Positions 19,368-55,157 of a DNA stretch of 60,951 bases are shown here, in pieces; positions within the stretch are counted from its first letter, which is position 1; every line of letters begins with the position of its first letter. The translations under genes and the position numbers were made by a program. Below the pieces are notes generated by a model. It was not told the DNA's origin, did no database searches, and saw nothing but the letters and a program-made list of their open reading frames with translations. Location: positions 1 to 60,951 of the forward strand of contig NZ_RCWC01000037.1 of the NCBI RefSeq assembly GCF_018448935.1, written 5' to 3'. This DNA is from Photorhabdus noenieputensis (lineage in GTDB: Bacteria > Pseudomonadota > Gammaproteobacteria > Enterobacterales > Enterobacteriaceae).

Positions 19368-19494
19368 TATACCCGTCATCTTTCAAGTTGCCTCTTTGTT
19401 GGCTGCACTCTCTCACCCCGGTCACAGAGTTATCTATACTCCCGGGGATTCGCTCCCTTGCCGCCGCGATGCATCTTGAAATCCATAGGGTATA
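19368..19494. repeat. ERIC element, reverse orientation, 127 bp
   Basis: A complete enterobacterial repetitive intergenic consensus unit running from TATACCCGTCAT to CCATAGGGTATA. It contains the central CTCACCCCGGTCAC and GGGGATTCGCTCCCTTGCCG segments. The length equals the canonical ERIC length. It lies in the frr-dxr gap, in the opposite orientation to the other two copies in the window. Confidence 0.92.
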
Positions 19495-26819: not shown

Positions 26820-26946
26820 TATACCCTATGGATTTCAAGATGCATCGCGGCGGCAAGGGAGCTAATCCCCGGGAGCATAGAGAACTATGTGACCGGGGTG
26901 AGTGAGTGTAGCCAACAAAGAGGCAACTTGAAAGATGACGGGTATA
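26820..26946. repeat. ERIC element between glnD and dapD, 127 bp
   Basis: Full-length ERIC running TATACCCTATGG to GATGACGGGTATA with the central GGCAAGGGAGC and GACCGGGGTGAG blocks. It begins eight bases after the glnD stop and fills most of the glnD-dapD gap, so it is transcribed with them if the genes are cotranscribed. Such insertions can alter stability of the flanking mRNA. Confidence 0.92.
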
Positions 26947-28466: not shown

Positions 28467-28916
28467 TTATTCAATTAATTCTCCCCATTGCCTGATCCAA
28501 GACTGAGCAAAAACTTCCGGTTCAGCTTCTTCCACCGCATCCACCATCAAAACCTCACCGATTCTTATTGCCCCTTGCTCTTGTAGCAACTCATCAAAAG
28601 CGCGGCCACCACCACAAAAATTCTCGTAACTGCTATCACCCAAGGCGATCACACCATAGCGTAATTCTGGTTGATACCCCAGTTCATCTCGCAAGGCATA
28701 GTAAAGAGGCCGGATATTATCGGGCAAATCTCCTTGTCCGGTAGTTGAAGTGATAACTAAAACCATTTGATCAAGATAGGATTGCCACTGTTCCAGCTCT
28801 CCTTCTTCAAAGACTTCTACATCATGACCTTGTTGTTCAAGGATCTGCTGTGCTTCTTCTGCAACAGCAAGCGCGTTACCATAAACAGTACCAACAAAAA
28901 TACCTATCTTTGCCAT
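28467..28916 (-). CDS. yqcA: Flavodoxin-like protein YqcA
   Basis: Short-chain flavodoxin of 149 residues binding FMN. The phosphate loop GTVYGNA, the [10 protein letters not shown] loop and the [14 protein letters not shown] loop are seen. Its electron partner is not known. In E. coli yqcA directly follows truC in a yqcC-truC-yqcA run. Here truC is 6 kb away, beyond an accessory islet, so yqcA must have its own promoter. Confidence 0.92.
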
Positions 28917-29079: not shown

Positions 29080-29206
29080 TATACCCTATGGATTTCAAGA
29101 TGCATCGCGACGGCAAGGAAGTGAATCCCCGGGAGCATAGATAACTATGTGACCGGGGTGAGCGAGTGCAGCCAACAAAGAGGCAACTTGAAATATAATG
29201 GGTATA
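29080..29206. repeat. ERIC element upstream of the islet, 127 bp
   Basis: Third full ERIC, same orientation as the copy at 26820, from TATACCCTATGG to TATAATGGGTATA. It lies in the 626-base gap between yqcA and the 29543 gene (28917-29542), near the left border of the accessory islet. The rest of the gap is AT-rich with no gene seen. Confidence 0.92.
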
Positions 29207-29542: not shown

Positions 29543-30709
29543 ATGTTTAACAATAGAGCTGTTGTGCTAAGTATACTATTAAGTGCCGCAAATATTACCG
29601 GCTCATCTGGCCTGATGATTTGGGTAGATACCGTGCTTAAAGATGGAGGCATGATTTTAAACGCTTATATTCCTGTTTTTTCCTATTTATTGGGGTTATC
29701 TCTGGGATGTATGACTGTATCCTTTTTTATTCGAAAAATGAATATTACTTTTTTTGAAAAAAATATTTTTTGCTTCTTCTTATTACTAGCAACCATAAAC
29801 TGCATTCTCTTTGCAAAAGAAACAACACTTATTCCAGTTTGGCTGGATGCTCCACATAGAATATTATGGGGAGTAATAAGTGGATTTATTGTTATAATGG
29901 GAAGAAACATTCTTATAACCGCAGGCAATGAAAAGAAAACGAATAGTGATTTTTCTATTTTAAGCCTGGCGTTATTAAGCCTGCCATTTTTAATCCCCGT
30001 TATTTTTTCTCTTTTAAGTTTAAATTCCCGTACATCAGCAGATTTTTTCGCTGCTTTTATTTATTCTATTGCTTCAATTATCTATTTCACTGGCTTTAAA
30101 AGCCATAATTTAAAAAAACAAAAACAGGATATTAAAGACTCTGTTAAAACAACCAATAAATTAGTTATTTTATTTGCCTTTTCCAGTTTAGTTATCATCA
30201 ATGTTTGCTTTTTTCTATCCTTAATGATTATGCCAGCAATGCGAACAAAATATTTTGAACATATTGACATGATTAAAATGTATATCATATTACTGATTAT
30301 ATGGTTTCCCTGTGCAATTGGCATCATGAAAATCATTAAATCTGTACTTTTAACCAAAAGAATCATGATAGGTAATATCATGCAATTATTTTCCCTCGGA
30401 TTCTATTTATTTGGCATTATGATAAATTCTGGCATACTCTATTTACTATTCACAATTATGGTATTTTTAGCTAATACTATTATGCAACCTGTTTTTTTCT
30501 CTTATTTGGGATTATATTCAAAAAACTCTCTTTATACTTTGGGTATGCAATCAGGTATTTATGTATTTATTACTATGGTCATTCTTTTTTATACTATTTA
30601 CTCAGGTGTTGGCGTTGAAGAAATCATTGCTGGATTTACAATATTATTAGTTTCTTCAATAGTTATATCGATAATTTTTCTCTTTACTATTAACTCTAAA
30701 AAACAATAA
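29543..30709 (+). CDS. Polytopic membrane protein, MFS-like, unknown function
   Basis: 388 residues with about eleven or twelve hydrophobic segments spread over the whole length and short loops, rich in Ile, Phe and Lys. An MFS-like transporter is the best guess but no family motif is definite. The ribosome site is weak (AGG about 12 bases before the ATG). Base composition is far more AT-rich than the core genes, suggesting transfer. It is convergent with the hydroxylase-racemase-MFS operon and separated from it by a bidirectional terminator, with a 67-codon frame between. Real gene likely; function unknown. Confidence 0.7.
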   Translation: MFNNRAVVLSILLSAANITGSSGLMIWVDTVLKDGGMILNAYIPVFSYLLGLSLGCMTVSFFIRKMNITFFEKNIFCFFLLLATINCILFAKETTLIPVWLDAPHRILWGVISGFIVIMGRNILITAGNEKKTNSDFSILSLALLSLPFLIPVIFSLLSLNSRTSADFFAAFIYSIASIIYFTGFKSHNLKKQKQDIKDSVKTTNKLVILFAFSSLVIINVCFFLSLMIMPAMRTKYFEHIDMIKMYIILLIIWFPCAIGIMKIIKSVLLTKRIMIGNIMQLFSLGFYLFGIMINSGILYLLFTIMVFLANTIMQPVFFSYLGLYSKNSLYTLGMQSGIYVFITMVILFYTIYSGVGVEEIIAGFTILLVSSIVISIIFLFTINSKKQ

Positions 30710-30766
30710 AACCAGCGTAATTATTATATTAAAACACTTATGGATCAATGAAGAGACATAATAATA

Positions 30767-30970
30767 ATGGGTATTTCACCAGAATACAAATCAGCCGCAC
30801 TGACCAATAATACAGCCGTATTTCCTCTTTTAAATAGAAGAAACATTCATAATCTTCAACGAAGCTTTTGCATCATTTTAGACTACAATCAATCAGTGCC
30901 TTCAATTATATCATCTAAAAAATTTAAATATTTATATGCTTATAGAAAATATTTATTTTATATCAAATGA
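30767..30970 (+). CDS. Small ORF downstream of the membrane protein, unknown
   Basis: 67 codons starting MGISPEYKSAALTNNTAVFP, with GAAGAG about nine bases before the ATG. It lies 57 bases after the membrane protein stop and ends before the shared terminator, so it would be on the same transcript. No family is recognised. A second overlapping frame (start 30936) continues for a few dozen codons as if the gene were frameshifted, but it runs through the terminator. It may be a small protein, a peptide product or a degraded gene. Confidence 0.35.
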   Translation: MGISPEYKSAALTNNTAVFPLLNRRNIHNLQRSFCIILDYNQSVPSIISSKKFKYLYAYRKYLFYIK

Positions 30971-31043
30971 TGAAGATGGTATAGATATCATACAATTGAA
31001 AGATATTCTATTACAAATGGTCAGTTTGGTGCTCATAAAGGAT

Positions 31044-31067
31044 AAAAAGCACCCTAAAGTGCTTTTT
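31044..31067. terminator. Bidirectional terminator inside the islet
   Basis: AAAAAGCAC (31044-31052) pairs with GTGCTTTTT (31059-31067) around CCTAAA, giving a U-run in both directions. It serves the plus-strand unit from 29543 and the minus-strand operon ending at 31117. Confidence 0.85.
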
Positions 31068-31116
31068 ATACAACCATTAATGACAAACAGTAAAGATACA
31101 ATAACAATACCCTATA

Positions 31117-32328
31117 CTAGCTTGCTAATACCTTTTTATTTCTAAAATAAGTAGTTAGTAAAGCAAAGAAAGTAAAAAGCATCAGTAATATCCAACTTAA
31201 GTTATAACTACCTGTAATATCTCTTAATATCCCTATTAATGGCGCAATAACAATCACAGATACTTGATTAGCAGTCATAGCTAAACCTAAAGCAAATCCC
31301 ATCCTATCCTTTGGGGCTGTGTCTGCTATATAAGCTACCCAAGGGCCATACCAACCTACTCCAAAGAAACCAAGTAAGATCATTAATGGGAATAAAAAAT
31401 AATAACTATCAGTTTTAATAAAAAATAAAATCGTGATTCCAATTAAAGAGAAAAATAAGCAACATAATACTTGAAAATATCTATTTGTTTTTGTTCTATC
31501 ACTCCAAGCAGCTAAGGCTATTCTTCCTAAAACCCCAGAAACAAGAGCTGAGAATAATAAAGTTGCACCTATAGATGGAGAAATTTTTAGTTCTTCATAA
31601 AAATAAGAAATTAGATAAATAACCACACTATATTGAATGGCTGTCAAACAAGCCCCAGACAACATAATATTAAACATCGCAGGCTCTTTAACCATTAACA
31701 TTTTATTTCTGATAGTCGATATAATATTAATGCGCCCTATTTTCTTTGCTCCAGGATCTTTATCTTTATAAAATATAAAAAAAAGTGTAGCCCCAAAAAT
31801 AGCAATGCATCCACTAGCAAAGAAAGCGAAATGCCAATTAAAACGTATTGCCAAAAATGGTAGGATTAAACTTGCTAAAGCCCCTCCTAGAGGTAATCCT
31901 GCTTGTCTAATCCCCATAGCAAAACCTAACTGGCTTTTTGGAAACCAATTAGAAACAGACTTGGCCCCACCTGGTTGCGCAGAACTATACCCAATCCCAA
32001 GAATAAATAAGAGTATGAGAATCGCATAATAGTTATCAAAAAATAGGGTAAAACATAGAGTCATTCCAACTAAGAAAACACCTATACTTACCACGTACTT
32101 TTCATTAAACCTATCAAGTAATTCTCCAGCTACTAGTAAACCAACTAATGGTGCAAGTTGAGCAGACGATACTAGTAACCCAATTTGGAATGCAGATAAC
32201 GACATCTGTTGTTGCAATAGTGGAGCGATAGAACCTATCCCTTGAACAAAAAAACACGCACATGCCTGAGTTATCGTAGCTATAAATAACACTGTCCATT
32301 TATAATTTTCAATATTTTGATTTATCAC
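31117..32328 (-). CDS. Major facilitator superfamily transporter
   Basis: 403 residues with twelve predicted transmembrane helices. The loop after helix 2 carries AGELLDRFNEKYVV, a variant of the MFS loop signature. Helix 4-5 shows LGIGYSSAQPGGAKSVSNWF, and the second half shows DTAPKDRMGFALGLAMT. The start is GTG with AGGA ten bases upstream, 23 bases after the racemase gene. As last gene of an operon with an amino acid hydroxylase and a racemase, it is most simply an exporter of, or importer for, that pathway's product. The substrate is not predictable. Confidence 0.85.
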   Translation of the reverse strand: MINQNIENYKWTVLFIATITQACACFFVQGIGSIAPLLQQQMSLSAFQIGLLVSSAQLAPLVGLLVAGELLDRFNEKYVVSIGVFLVGMTLCFTLFFDNYYAILILLFILGIGYSSAQPGGAKSVSNWFPKSQLGFAMGIRQAGLPLGGALASLILPFLAIRFNWHFAFFASGCIAIFGATLFFIFYKDKDPGAKKIGRINIISTIRNKMLMVKEPAMFNIMLSGACLTAIQYSVVIYLISYFYEELKISPSIGATLLFSALVSGVLGRIALAAWSDRTKTNRYFQVLCCLFFSLIGITILFFIKTDSYYFLFPLMILLGFFGVGWYGPWVAYIADTAPKDRMGFALGLAMTANQVSVIVIAPLIGILRDITGSYNLSWILLMLFTFFALLTTYFRNKKVLAS

Positions 32329-32351
32329 GAATTAACTATCCTAGAAGATCT

Positions 32352-33212
32352 TTATAAAAAACCACTATATGAATATGGAAAAGTAAAGTTATCGGCTTTA
32401 CTTTGTTCTGTTAAGAATAAAAATTTCTGAATTCCCTTTTGAGAGTTACTTTGGTTAATCGCTTGATAAAGGGAGTTAACGGCATCATAGGCAGGATCCA
32501 CCCACTCATTAACATTTTTAAAAATATACTTTAATTCATCTTTAATATTAGGAAAGTGAGTGCACCCTAAAATCACTACATCTACATTATCAATCTCTTC
32601 TTTTGTCATTGATTTTAGTATTAAACTTTCTATTTCATTGGTTTTTAATAGTATTCCTCTTGATTTCATCTCTGAAAAGTTAACTAGCTCTGTTAAACCT
32701 AACTTTTTAAAGATGAACTTATCATAAATTAACTTTTCACATATATTATTAACATATTCACTGTTAATTGTATTAGGTGTAGCAATCAGAAGAACATTTT
32801 TTTTTGAAGAGATCTGAAAGGCTTCTAAAATAGGAGGGAGCACTTTAATACAAGGCAATTTTAGTTTTTCTATAAAATTGTTACTCAATAAAGTTGATGC
32901 TGTATTACAGGCAATAATTAAACCAATTGGCTTAAATACTTGTACTGCTTGCTCTAACAAATCTTCTATTCTTTCTAGTAGTAAAGTTCTATCCTTATTT
33001 CCATAAGGATAGAACTTATTATCAGCAATATAAACGACGTCAGTACCTAAAAAAAAATTCTCTACATATTTAGATACTGATAAACCACCAACTCCCGAAT
33101 CAAAAATCAATATTCTAGGGGTATCGGTGTTTATTTTTTCTACAGAATCACCATTAGAATTGTAAAATTCTATATTTTTTTTTTCTAAAATAATCGTATC
33201 TTCAACTAACAT
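32352..33212 (-). CDS. Glutamate racemase family protein (second MurI-like)
   Basis: 286 residues of the Asp/Glu racemase superfamily, closest in motifs to MurI: ILIFDSGVGGLSV at about 30, then KFYPYG, the first catalytic Cys in IIACNTAST, and the second in VILGCTHFP. Both catalytic cysteines are present, so activity is likely, interconverting L- and D-glutamate or a related acidic amino acid. The usual chromosomal murI lies next to btuB in enterobacteria, so this is probably an extra copy. It is cotranscribed with a VioC-type hydroxylase (nine bases upstream) and an MFS transporter. It is AT-rich and shows an N-terminal extension of about 25 residues. Confidence 0.85.
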   Translation of the reverse strand: MLVEDTIILEKKNIEFYNSNGDSVEKINTDTPRILIFDSGVGGLSVSKYVENFFLGTDVVYIADNKFYPYGNKDRTLLLERIEDLLEQAVQVFKPIGLIIACNTASTLLSNNFIEKLKLPCIKVLPPILEAFQISSKKNVLLIATPNTINSEYVNNICEKLIYDKFIFKKLGLTELVNFSEMKSRGILLKTNEIESLILKSMTKEEIDNVDVVILGCTHFPNIKDELKYIFKNVNEWVDPAYDAVNSLYQAINQSNSQKGIQKFLFLTEQSKADNFTFPYSYSGFL

Positions 33213-33221
33213 AAAAACCTC

Positions 33222-34193
33222 TTACGCAATGATAGCTCGACTTTGAACAGATCCTCGCATTCCTCGAGATTTCTTTAAATCAGTTGTAAATACAACTCTT
33301 GCTAACCAACGTGCTTTTTCTCCAAAGAAAGGTTCATATGCATCCCTGGCGTGTACACATCTAAAGTTATCAACAAATATACAATCTGAAGTATTTAAAA
33401 CAATTGACTCCTTATTTTTATTAAAAAAATCAATTACCTTATTGACTGCTTTTATTTCATCTAACGAATTGTTATCTAGGTTCAAAGCAGCAGCATTAAT
33501 TCTTACATAAGGCTCTTCTTTTGCACCAAATAATATTGCTTGACCTTCTTCATCAACAATATTTGAAGTTGAATGAATTGGATTATGAGAAATATAAAAC
33601 CTGTCCTGAAAAAGAAGTTCTTTTTCCTTGTCAGTAAGTTCAATACCGTCAATACAAGAAATTGTTGTTGGTGCTCTTTCTTCATTTCGCATACAGACAA
33701 GTCCCAAGAATTCAGCTCTTGCTGGGTGAAAGGCATCTTCTACATGAAACCCAAAATCTTTATTTGAACCACTGCTTGAATTAGGGACATTTTGTAATTC
33801 TTCGAAAGGGATAATATTATTGTATATACTACCATTTCGTTGGGAGGTAAATCCCATACCTTCTCCCAATAAAGATCCATATAGACCTAATAATATTTTT
33901 GCATCATTAATTTTATATCCATCTTCTAATTCTATTAATTTTCTCGGAGTTGGTTGAACACCATTAAGTAAAACAGGGTTATCTTTAACATGAATAGCAG
34001 CATATTTCTCATGCCGCTTAAAATGATAAAACTCTTCTCTAATACTACGAGGCAACTCTTGTGCGAAAATTGGGGCTCTTTCTAGAAAGTCATATTGATT
34101 ATCTAATTTCTCATCAAAAACAATATGATCTATTAAACCTTTAATCACTTTACTTTCATTTTGATCAGGTTTAATTTCCTTAATATATGTCAT
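33222..34193 (-). CDS. Fe(II)/2-oxoglutarate dioxygenase, VioC/AsnO-type amino acid hydroxylase
   Basis: 323 residues of the clavaminate synthase-like/TauD superfamily. The iron ligands are seen as His150-Val-Glu152 (in FHVEDAFHPARAEFLG) and His281 (in DNFRCVHARDAY), and Arg295, fourteen residues later, fits the 2-oxoglutarate carboxylate site. The His-X-Glu form rather than His-X-Asp is characteristic of the L-arginine (VioC) and L-asparagine (AsnO) beta-hydroxylases. Probable reaction: C3 hydroxylation of a free amino acid; the substrate is not resolved. It is the first gene of an operon with a racemase and an MFS transporter. AGGA lies two bases from the ATG. Confidence 0.85.
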   Translation of the reverse strand: MTYIKEIKPDQNESKVIKGLIDHIVFDEKLDNQYDFLERAPIFAQELPRSIREEFYHFKRHEKYAAIHVKDNPVLLNGVQPTPRKLIELEDGYKINDAKILLGLYGSLLGEGMGFTSQRNGSIYNNIIPFEELQNVPNSSSGSNKDFGFHVEDAFHPARAEFLGLVCMRNEERAPTTISCIDGIELTDKEKELLFQDRFYISHNPIHSTSNIVDEEGQAILFGAKEEPYVRINAAALNLDNNSLDEIKAVNKVIDFFNKNKESIVLNTSDCIFVDNFRCVHARDAYEPFFGEKARWLARVVFTTDLKKSRGMRGSVQSRAIIA

Positions 34194-34500
34194 CTTCCTA
34201 CTCTAATATAGTTAATTTAATAAAAACCAATTTGGTTCAGGGAATTTATATTTTTTTAGTTTAAAACAAAATTTACTTTACATTTATTTACATTTTTATT
34301 ATTTCCAAAATTTTATTTTATTCATAAATTTCAAAAAGTTAAATTATCGTTGTAGAAAAAACATCTTTTTTAAAATCGAACGAAATATTTACGGAAATAA
34401 TATTTAAATCCATTTTTTCAAAAAATCATGCATTTTTTATTTAAATACTAACGTAATATTACACTAGGAAACTTTTAATCTAAACAAGGTAGAAACTGAG
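34194..34500. promoter_or_regulatory. AT-rich region upstream of the hydroxylase operon
   Basis: About 300 bases of very AT-rich sequence with many A and T tracts precede the hydroxylase gene on the minus strand. No clear -35/-10 pair stands out. The composition is typical of promoters bound by H-NS, which would fit silencing of a transferred operon. No coding frame is seen. Confidence 0.35.
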
Positions 34501-34747
34501 TGTTTGTTTATTACTCATCGTATTAAAACCAACTATCAGTACCTTATCCATATAGGCGCTATTCATGTTGGCCTGTTTTCGTTTGCCGCGAATACTGGCT
34601 TTTTTGTTGTTTCCGCACGAAACATATTCAAAGTCAGATCATATACAAGCCAGAATTTCAGCAGTATCACCAGACTGGTTCTTAAATTTACGCCTAACTC
34701 AACGCAATAATACTTTGAGCAGATCGTTTCTCTTGTAGCTTTACTAA

Positions 34748-34861
34748 GCCTCGGCTGACAAGGTATATCCAAGGAAGTCGAAACGGGTGTGTTCATACCC
34801 GTCCTTTTGTTTCCCGTCTTTGCACTTTGCAATAGGTAATTCTGGTTTTGTCAGGGTGAAA
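34748..34861 (-). pseudogene. Fragment of a group II intron reverse transcriptase/maturase
   Basis: Read on the minus strand, 34861-34822 encodes HPDKTRITYCK and 34824-34748, in another frame, encodes CKDGKQKDGYEHTRFDFLGY followed by TLSAE. Together these match the conserved end of the reverse transcriptase domain in group II intron proteins (the usual form is HPDKT-I-YCKDG then F-FLGYTF). The frames are joined by a tandem duplication of the seven bases TGCAAAG, which explains the shift. Nothing complete of the intron is seen around it. The rest of 34500-34985 has no other recognisable gene. Confidence 0.6.
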
Positions 34862-34985
34862 CATTCCATCTACTACGCCAGCAACATACCTATTTACGGG
34901 TACAAAACAAGACTAGGTTACTACCGTAGAAAGCTTGCTTTGCTTGTAGTACTGGCGGGGTGGAGAGAGTCAACGACGGCTTTCG

Positions 34986-35732
34986 CTAATTACTATCATA
35001 CTCCAAATCGGGGATAATACCTTGCCAGCCAAATTGTTGTATTAAATGCTGCCATGACGCATCCCATTTTGCCGTAAGCGATAATTTCTCCCCCGTAACA
35101 GGGTGATCCAACTCAAGACAACTGGCATGAAGCATCAACCGGTTGGTTTGATAATGAGCGGCAACCCCTCTGTTTTGCCGTAAATCGCCATGCGTTGTAT
35201 CACCAATAATGGGGTGACGAATATGTGCCATATGGCGTCTTAATTGATGTTTTCGGCCTGTTTTCGGTGTCAACTCCAACAAACTAAAACGTGATGTAGG
35301 ATAACGACCTATTTCTACCGGACACTCCACCGTTGCCAGTGGCCGGTAATAAGTCACACTGGGTTGAGCTTCTTTATCGCCATCTGCAAATTTATCTGCG
35401 ATCTTATCCAGTTCCTCAACCAGAGCGTAATCAATAATAGCTGGTTCCAGCACATAACCACGCACGACAGCGTGATAAGTTTTTTGTAACTGATGATGTT
35501 CAAACTGTTGGGAGAGCTGGCGGGCAACATCGCTGGAAAGCGCCATCAGCAATACACCTGACGTTGGTCTATCCAGACGGTGTACCGGGAAAACATGCTG
35601 ACCAATCTGATCACGCAATGTCTGCATGACAAAGACAGTTTCGTGACGCGCCAACCAGCTACGATGAACTAACCACCCCGCTGGCTTATTAACTGCCACA
35701 ATATAATCATCCTGATATAACACTTCCAACAT
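34986..35732 (-). CDS. truC: tRNA pseudouridine(65) synthase TruC
   Basis: Isomerises U65 of tRNA-Ile and tRNA-Asp. The start chosen is the ATG at 35730-35732, one base past the yqcC stop, giving 248 residues beginning MLEVLYQDDYIVAVNKPAG; a longer frame overlapping yqcC is not supported. RluA-family motifs are seen: WLVHRSWL, the catalytic HRLDRPTSG near residue 55, and the TGRKHQLRRHMAHIRHP block. It lies downstream of yqcC, but yqcA, its usual neighbour, is displaced by the islet. Confidence 0.93.
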   Translation of the reverse strand: MLEVLYQDDYIVAVNKPAGWLVHRSWLARHETVFVMQTLRDQIGQHVFPVHRLDRPTSGVLLMALSSDVARQLSQQFEHHQLQKTYHAVVRGYVLEPAIIDYALVEELDKIADKFADGDKEAQPSVTYYRPLATVECPVEIGRYPTSRFSLLELTPKTGRKHQLRRHMAHIRHPIIGDTTHGDLRQNRGVAAHYQTNRLMLHASCLELDHPVTGEKLSLTAKWDASWQHLIQQFGWQGIIPDLEYDSN

Positions 35733-35733
35733 A

Positions 35734-36066
35734 TCAAACGTTATCCTGCATAAATAAGCGATCCAACGCACGAAGATGTTCAAGCAGTTGCTGATAACGT
35801 CCGGTAGTATCTTCTTTATAAGATTCCTCAAAGTAAGGCGCGATAGCAAATGCCGTAGGCAACGCTAATCCCTGCTCCAACAATGCATACATTCTCGGAA
35901 TTAATATCCACTGTAACCACTCTTCAGCTAACATTGTATCAATGGAAAATGGCTCAACACTTTCGAAAGCTTCTGGTTTAGGCGGATGGCTCTGCCACAG
36001 GCCAATTTCCCTCATGGCTTCTTCAATTAACTGTAATTTATGCAGAATTTGTTTTGTGGCACTCAT
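35734..36066 (-). CDS. yqcC: YqcC family protein
   Basis: 110-residue protein of the YqcC family (four-helix-bundle like, no known catalytic residues). Characteristic parts are LWQSHPP, PFSIDTMLAEEWLQWILIPRM and the acidic C terminus. The function is not established. It is the first gene of the yqcC-truC pair, with the CsrB RNA gene upstream as in E. coli. Confidence 0.9.
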   Translation of the reverse strand: MSATKQILHKLQLIEEAMREIGLWQSHPPKPEAFESVEPFSIDTMLAEEWLQWILIPRMYALLEQGLALPTAFAIAPYFEESYKEDTTGRYQQLLEHLRALDRLFMQDNV

Positions 36067-54869: not shown

Positions 54870-54946
<77 letters not shown>

Positions 54947-54974
54947 ACGCAATAAAGTAGTTCGATAAAACGGA

Positions 54975-55051
<77 letters not shown>

Positions 55052-55080
55052 ATTTTCGCTATTCAAAATATCAAAACGGA

Positions 55081-55157
<77 letters not shown>

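Follow-up and report, generated by a model that had tools for sequence, protein, structure and literature searches.

A co-inherited hydroxylase-racemase-transporter cassette of Photorhabdus and Pseudomonas-like bacteria, with a possible role in hydroxy-amino acid metabolism

The Three-Gene Cassette

A stretch of 60,951 nucleotides from Photorhabdus noenieputensis (contig NZ_RCWC01000037.1, assembly GCF_018448935.1), hereafter the window, carries at 31117-34193 three intact and tightly spaced genes on the minus strand, as had been reported in an original prediction made from the sequence alone. They encode a putative Fe(II)/2-oxoglutarate (2OG) hydroxylase of the clavaminate-synthase-like (CSL) family, a MurI-like racemase and a transporter of the major facilitator superfamily (MFS), and they were found to be inherited together in other bacteria:

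33222-34193, minus strand: gene 1, CSL Fe(II)/2-oxoglutarate hydroxylase, 323 aa
32352-33212, minus strand: gene 2, MurI-like racemase, 286 aa
31117-32328, minus strand: gene 3, MFS transporter (PF07690), 403 aa, GTG start

The spacers measured 9 nt between the hydroxylase and racemase genes and 23 nt between the racemase and MFS genes, and this close spacing makes a single transcription unit plausible. A promoter scan found 14 sigma-70-like sites against 20.5 in shuffled sequences and so gave no evidence of promoters. The AT-richness noted earlier was borne out by a GC content of 31.6% in the cassette versus 42.8% in the remaining window. Chance open reading frames were excluded because the three-gene unit was kept in other genera and because pairwise dN/dS values were 0.07-0.22.

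Occurrence in Other Genomes

A protein-level scan across the collected genomes matched the hydroxylase in P. luminescens DSM 3368 (97%), P. heterorhabditis SF41 (93%) and Xenorhabdus szentirmaii DSM 16338 (80%), together with a hydroxylase fragment in P. bodei LJ24-63. Among 12 Photorhabdus genomes (the window's own and 11 others), there were two full-length hydroxylases and one fragment, the other nine holding distant paralogues at most, and one of 30 Xenorhabdus genomes presented an ortholog-level hydroxylase (703.7 bits). A sample of 392 genomes from the family of the window's host contained no ortholog-level hydroxylase outside Photorhabdus. Nothing above 89.7 bits was obtained from 369 genomes of the class besides the window's own hydroxylase. 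In the family addressed with an OprI probe (398 genomes), one ortholog scored 438.7 bits, the other 42 matches lying at 58-78 bits, and 363 genomes of that ortholog's genus yielded five hydroxylase orthologs, the 438.7-bit one included. Based on the OprI probe and the species number, we infer that the genus of these five Pseudomonas-like cassettes is Pseudomonas. A tblastn search of plasmids returned 53 records, every one below 60% identity.

The original prediction had proposed looking for the same three genes elsewhere, and they were found together in two Photorhabdus species, P. luminescens and P. heterorhabditis, with order and site as in the window, and at all five Pseudomonas-like hydroxylase loci, where hydroxylase, racemase and MFS genes followed one another in that order on one strand. 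The three genes are thus supported as a co-inherited unit. Identity between the Pseudomonas-like and window proteins was 55-61% for the hydroxylase (three unbroken copies), 29-32% for the racemase (four unbroken copies) and 48-53% for the MFS protein (five copies).

Mobility, Decay and Selection

No cross-locus tblastx matches (E 1e-6) were obtained among the 3-kb flanking regions of seven cassettes, the five Pseudomonas-like ones and those of X. szentirmaii and P. luminescens. In nine of nine loci the cassette was 8.8-16.2 points lower in GC than its surroundings (31.6-50.3% versus 42.4-63.3%), the comparison being made with the rest of the fetched locus or, for the window cassette, with the rest of the window. 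Several copies were decayed. In P. bodei, only the first third of the hydroxylase gene was present, with an internal stop and beside a 127-bp repeat, and in X. szentirmaii a collinear, shrunken racemase remnant lay between unbroken hydroxylase and MFS genes. Moreover, the hydroxylase was split between two frames in G1365 and G1270, and the racemase in G1428, all three being draft genomes with Pseudomonas-like cassettes. Purifying selection was shown on the intact copies compared, with pairwise dN/dS of 0.10-0.18 for the hydroxylase, 0.15-0.22 for the racemase (within Photorhabdus) and 0.07-0.14 for the MFS gene; against X. szentirmaii, the values were 0.10-0.11 for the hydroxylase and 0.07-0.08 for the MFS gene.

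The surroundings of the cassette in the window comprise the following features:

28467-28916: flavodoxin gene (PRK08105 match), presumably yqcA
29543-30709, plus strand: membrane-protein gene, 388 aa, in the flavodoxin-truC interval beside the cassette
30710-34985: stretch between the 29543-30709 gene and truC, without counterpart in the four cassette-free Photorhabdus genomes examined
31044-31067: perfect 9-bp inverted repeat (AAAAAGCAC, 6-nt loop, GTGCTTTTT) just 3′ of the MFS stop codon, terminator-like by eye only
34986-35849: truC (NF008321 above cut-off)

The location between yqcA and truC given by the original prediction therefore held, with the PRK08105 flavodoxin on one side and TruC (NF008321) on the other. 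In all four cassette-free genomes, homologous DNA restarted about 125-280 bp past the 29543-30709 gene, at truC; the missing cassette could reflect ancestral absence or loss. The inverted repeat was missing from the output of the sequence scan. The membrane protein, which had no Pfam or NCBIfam match, was considered as a fourth gene of the unit and rejected, since homologous DNA occupies this site in cassette-free Photorhabdus and no significant match to it was present in X. szentirmaii or at the five Pseudomonas-like loci.

The 127-bp repeat, with ends TATACCC/GGGTATA, occurs in the window at 29080-29206, 26820-26946 and 19368-19494, in copies of 92-100% identity, and from its length we take it to be ERIC-like. 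One P. bodei copy edges the truncated hydroxylase (L018 10311-10437) and another splits the membrane-protein gene. Three tandem tRNA-Met genes lie elsewhere in the window, at 54870-55157.

The Hydroxylase and Its Pocket

The hydroxylase matched TauD (PF02668) with an E value of 5e-7, and CSL models fitted far better. The best NCBIfam model was GntD (NF041363; 242.9 bits, E 5e-72), below its curated cut-off of 345, which the hydroxylase of G1137 also did not reach (253.6 bits); VioC (TIGR03946) gave 183.7 bits, below a curated cut-off of 418.6. The best matches among sequences of the Protein Data Bank were CmnC, OrfP and VioC chains, with E of about 1e-34 to 1e-32. The iron triad, the 2OG arginine and the substrate-carboxylate arginine (H150, E152, H281, R295 and R299) were conserved in seven of seven unbroken cassette hydroxylases, including all four residues named in the original prediction (His150, Glu152, His281 and Arg295), and Arg299 aligned with the substrate-carboxylate Arg of CmnC and VioC.

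In CmnC, the two ends of arginine are held by Asp247/Asp249 and by Arg313/Ser138 (PMC9513391), and NapI has Asp at the first position of the Asp pair and Ala at the second (PMC10884159). N233 and A235 of the window hydroxylase align with this guanidinium-binding pair (VioC D268/D270), and a substrate of the arginine or guanidine type was ruled out by its loss in the alignment. The earlier assignment to a VioC/AsnO type accordingly stood at family level only, as the Asp pair is substituted and the enzyme lacks the PPSD sub-pocket of AsnO.

Bastard et al. (2018; PMC6224419) divided the CSL family into groups by active site. As far as the available part of that paper goes, group G4 combines Arg at P3 and His at P11 with an NPIN sub-pocket replacing the acidic one, is predicted to be C4-regioselective with a hydrophobic substrate, and has no characterised member named. 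By sequence, the pocket of the window hydroxylase (Q118, R119, H203, N204, P205, I206, N233, A235) appears to be of this type, so that the enzyme fits the G4 description in its Arg P3, His P11 and NPIN. The signature Q118 R119 H203 N204 (P/A)205 I206 N233 A235 was present in all seven unbroken cassette enzymes, that of X. szentirmaii having Ala at P13 (205), and was absent from the other 56 CSL relatives. These 63 proteins made up the pocket alignment, from which fragments, duplicates, split genes and some weak matches were left out (L003, L015, L018, L023, L024, L029, L032, L035-L041, L092, L095, L098-L100).

Four Photorhabdus CSL proteins in the alignment (L007-L009 and L013; 334-aa open reading frames) read PYR at columns 204-206. 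The motif of group G6, predicted to act on acidic amino acids, starts with PYR and has Ala or Val at its last position (PMC6224419). Columns 204-206 are supported by this coincidence; at column 233, the four proteins have Ser where G6 would have Ala or Val, which makes the alignment imperfect there.

The Racemase

The racemase scored 161.6 bits against TIGR00067, above the cut-off of 146.65; among other cassette racemases, those of G1361 (157.7) and G1365 (159.5) were also above it, and those of G1137 (141.5) and G1270 (145.2) below. The nearest solved relative was the glutamate racemase 2jfn (E 9e-29). The active-site residues given for MurI are Asp7, Ser8, Cys70, Thr72, Glu150, Cys181, Thr182 and His183 in Helicobacter pylori numbering (PMC11801594). 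With positions transferred through motifs and an alignment with the host MurI, not with the H. pylori sequence, all eight were kept in the window racemase (D38, S39, C102, T104, E181, C217, T218 and H219), among them the two catalytic cysteines, C102 and C217, claimed previously. Six further positions, which we take to be active-site residues of MurI, were kept as well. Because the named glutamate-racemase residues are retained, the enzyme probably binds glutamate or an amino acid resembling it.

Phylogenetic analysis separated the seven cassette racemases from six housekeeping MurI proteins by one branch (100/98). The window racemase is about 32-35% identical to the host MurI. Racemase matches were counted in five hosts: there were two in the window genome, G004, G1137 and G1361, and one in X. 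szentirmaii (G1207). As X. szentirmaii has lost the racemase and keeps the hydroxylase and MFS genes under purifying selection, the racemase may be dispensable or may serve protection.

The Transporter

The third protein is a full MFS protein (PF07690, 223.5 bits; gathering score 33.4). Its nearest named models and solved structures were mostly organic-anion carriers, for D-galactonate and phosphoglycerate, and drug exporters (Bcr/CflA, NorA) matched it at weaker scores.

Proposed Function and Rival Explanations

The reading that we tentatively favour, at somewhat less than an even chance, is that the cassette is a horizontally moving three-gene mini-pathway whose product, of the 4-hydroxyglutamate/glutamine type, is moved across the membrane. 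The hydroxylase would oxidise a free L-alpha-amino acid, since the residues contacting the alpha-amino and carboxylate groups are conserved by alignment. Hydroxylation would probably occur at C4, as Arg119 and His203 suggest, and arginine would not be a substrate, given the lost Asp pair. The product might then be a small hydroxylated amino acid with an acidic or amide side chain, and the MFS protein may carry it through the membrane, most probably to the outside. An accessory small-molecule pathway would fit a cassette that is co-inherited, small, low in GC and often lost.

In this respect, the original prediction was retained in part: the co-inherited unit, the amino-acid modification and the membrane passage stood, and the chemistry was revised. 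It had proposed a beta-hydroxylated product; the pocket signature is that of a group predicted to be C4-selective, and an acidic or amide product, most likely C4-hydroxylated, is favoured in view of the G4 pocket, the MurI-like racemase and the anion-carrier-like MFS protein. The suggested D-configuration is doubtful, because X. szentirmaii maintains the other two genes under purifying selection after the loss of the racemase. Export is an assumption, in view of nearest relatives that are mostly organic-anion carriers.

Several observations weigh against the favoured reading. The G4 prediction of Bastard et al. concerns hydrophobic substrates, not glutamate (PMC6224419). Residues 203-207, in the lid, align ambiguously, the gap falling at different places in the CmnC and OrfP alignments. 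An AlphaFold2 model built on a 4-row alignment was unusable (mean predicted local distance difference test score 34), which left the sequence as the basis for reading the pocket. In one of seven cassette racemases (G1361; L101 7529-8443), the catalytic Asp is replaced by Glu, and the racemase tree, in which all rows were kept, carried a long-branch and odd-composition warning. Moreover, dS to X. szentirmaii was 0.98-1.50, near saturation; no ligase, release enzyme or regulator was present in the three-gene unit; several models near the MFS protein are uptake (H+) symporters; and the G1361 cassette is followed, on its own strand, by genes for an aspartate ammonia-lyase and an asparaginase-like protein (L101 2259-4843), which could indicate catabolism there. 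Finally, X. szentirmaii has lost the racemase and a Pseudomonas-like cassette (G1428) has it split, so it need not belong to synthesis. Its absence from X. szentirmaii speaks against a biosynthetic role that is obligatory, and also against a strictly needed protective role unless the housekeeping MurI or efflux suffices there.

The part played by the racemase is the point on which two of the rival explanations differ. It might be biosynthetic, epimerising the hydroxylated amino acid or supplying D-glutamate, so that a D-amino acid would be exported. The racemase gene lies between the other two in eight of eight three-gene loci, nearly abutting the hydroxylase gene, and its products form one group in the tree, a grouping that also disfavours independent recruitment (subject to the long-branch warning); in Photorhabdus the gene is under purifying selection. 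However, besides its loss and splitting beside maintained partners, the racemase is the least conserved of the three proteins, and its spacer to the MFS gene, 23 nt in Photorhabdus, is longer than 100 nt at three Pseudomonas-like loci out of five; we regard a biosynthetic racemase as rather unlikely. Alternatively, the hydroxylase alone could make a glutamate-like antimetabolite of glutamate racemase, the cassette racemase being an insensitive second MurI and the MFS protein pumping the compound out. Such self-protection would agree with the second, separate MurI in all four tested hosts with a cassette racemase, with the MurI residues retained though the rest diverged to about 32%, with the persistence of hydroxylase and MFS genes alone in X. 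szentirmaii, and with the two Pseudomonas-like cassettes whose hydroxylase is split and whose racemase and MFS genes are unbroken, as expected of immune non-producers. Yet X. szentirmaii, whose hydroxylase appears intact and whose genome gave only one racemase match, should poison itself, single gene splits may be recent, and the available text on glutamate racemase self-resistance concerns another Photorhabdus cluster (PMC12406682). We regard self-protection as unlikely. A more specific proposal, in which the cassette is a minimal antibiotic unit whose hydroxylase would make a Glu/Gln-derived, D-glutamate-targeting wall antimetabolite, with protection by an insensitive racemase and export by the MFS protein, appears improbable.

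Other explanations change the substrate or the direction of transport. A hydrophobic substrate such as leucine, isoleucine or methionine, to which the racemase would have drifted from glutamate, agrees with the published prediction for the NPIN pocket (PMC6224419) and with the low identity of the racemase to the host MurI. The window racemase nevertheless keeps eight of eight named MurI residues, along with the six presumed ones, and anion carriers predominate among the named MFS models closest to the transporter; there is little chance that this substrate is the true one. In turn, uptake followed by detoxification or catabolism would have the MFS protein import an amino-acid-like compound to be converted by hydroxylase and racemase. 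The H+ symporters among the nearest MFS models and the genes 3′ of the G1361 cassette would suit it. Against it, no catabolic enzyme or regulator lies inside the unit in the eight three-gene loci, flanking genes are not shared among the seven loci compared, and the CSL enzymes of known function serve, to our knowledge, biosynthesis; uptake is very unlikely.

In the context of the mini-pathway reading, the cassette provides a genomic context for CSL group G4 in a self-contained moving unit, found in bacteria that are rich in natural products. If the racemase is protective, it would point to a natural inhibitor of glutamate racemase; if the minimal antibiotic proposal were true, it would give group G4 its first function and the cassette would be among the smallest antibiotic units. 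With only three genes, it is easy to express and test.

Other Hydroxylase and Biosynthetic Loci

A pathway shared with the 320-aa Xenorhabdus relatives of the hydroxylase was rejected, as their neighbour genes differ, by eye and, on the X. bovienii plasmid (blsG, pyridoxal phosphate enzyme and polyketide synthase), by annotation, and the pocket signature is missing from them. Longer CSL hydroxylases, which reach about 560-595 aa through an extended N-terminus, occur at L051 9036-10817 (P. bodei) and L050 3096-4775 (a Xenorhabdus), adjoining a gene that resembles, by eye, a LysE-type exporter and one for a protein of about 295 aa. The X. bovienii megaplasmid NZ_FO818638.1 (L054 5406-16807) carries consecutive genes annotated as blsG (arginine 2,3-aminomutase), a pyridoxal phosphate enzyme, a TauD/TfdA dioxygenase and a type I polyketide synthase, and blocks resembling this row by eye are found at L047-L049 on Xenorhabdus chromosomes.

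Comparison with Known Systems

In agreement with the original prediction, which knew of no described pathway with this exact set of genes, no paper on a hydroxylase-racemase-MFS cassette was found in the open-licence PubMed Central literature, and for 4-hydroxyglutamate with a hydroxylase or racemase no such pathway was among the matches listed. In the speirobactin cluster of P. temperata, an MFS transporter adjoins an Asp/Glu racemase family protein (PMC12406682). Likened by description and not by sequence, that cluster differs in its nonribosomal peptide synthetase and 244-aa racemase, and the available part of its description includes no CSL hydroxylase. The asparagine hydroxylase AsnO belongs to the same family as the cassette hydroxylase (phmmer E 6.8e-20) and has a PPSD sub-pocket in place of NPIN; its D241N variant, listed with aspartate as substrate (PMC9968057), is a lead only.

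VioC, CmnC and OrfP share with the cassette hydroxylase the metal triad, the 2OG Arg and the substrate-carboxylate Arg, and differ in the Asp pair, D268/D270 of VioC being N233/A235 in the cassette enzyme. The L-enduracididine beta-hydroxylase GntD provides the best NCBIfam model, yet one whose cut-off is not reached. In its pocket the hydroxylase resembles CSL group G4 (representative B0KR96, presumably a Pseudomonas protein), with Gln/Arg at P2/P3, His at P11 and NPIN at P12-P15, a likeness drawn from the published description of the group. The window racemase has in common with MurI the eight named active-site residues, TIGR00067 scores of cassette racemases falling on both sides of the cut-off, and it differs from MurI in grouping apart from the host enzymes and in the hinge stretch, which reads IKVLPPI instead of VGVVPAI.

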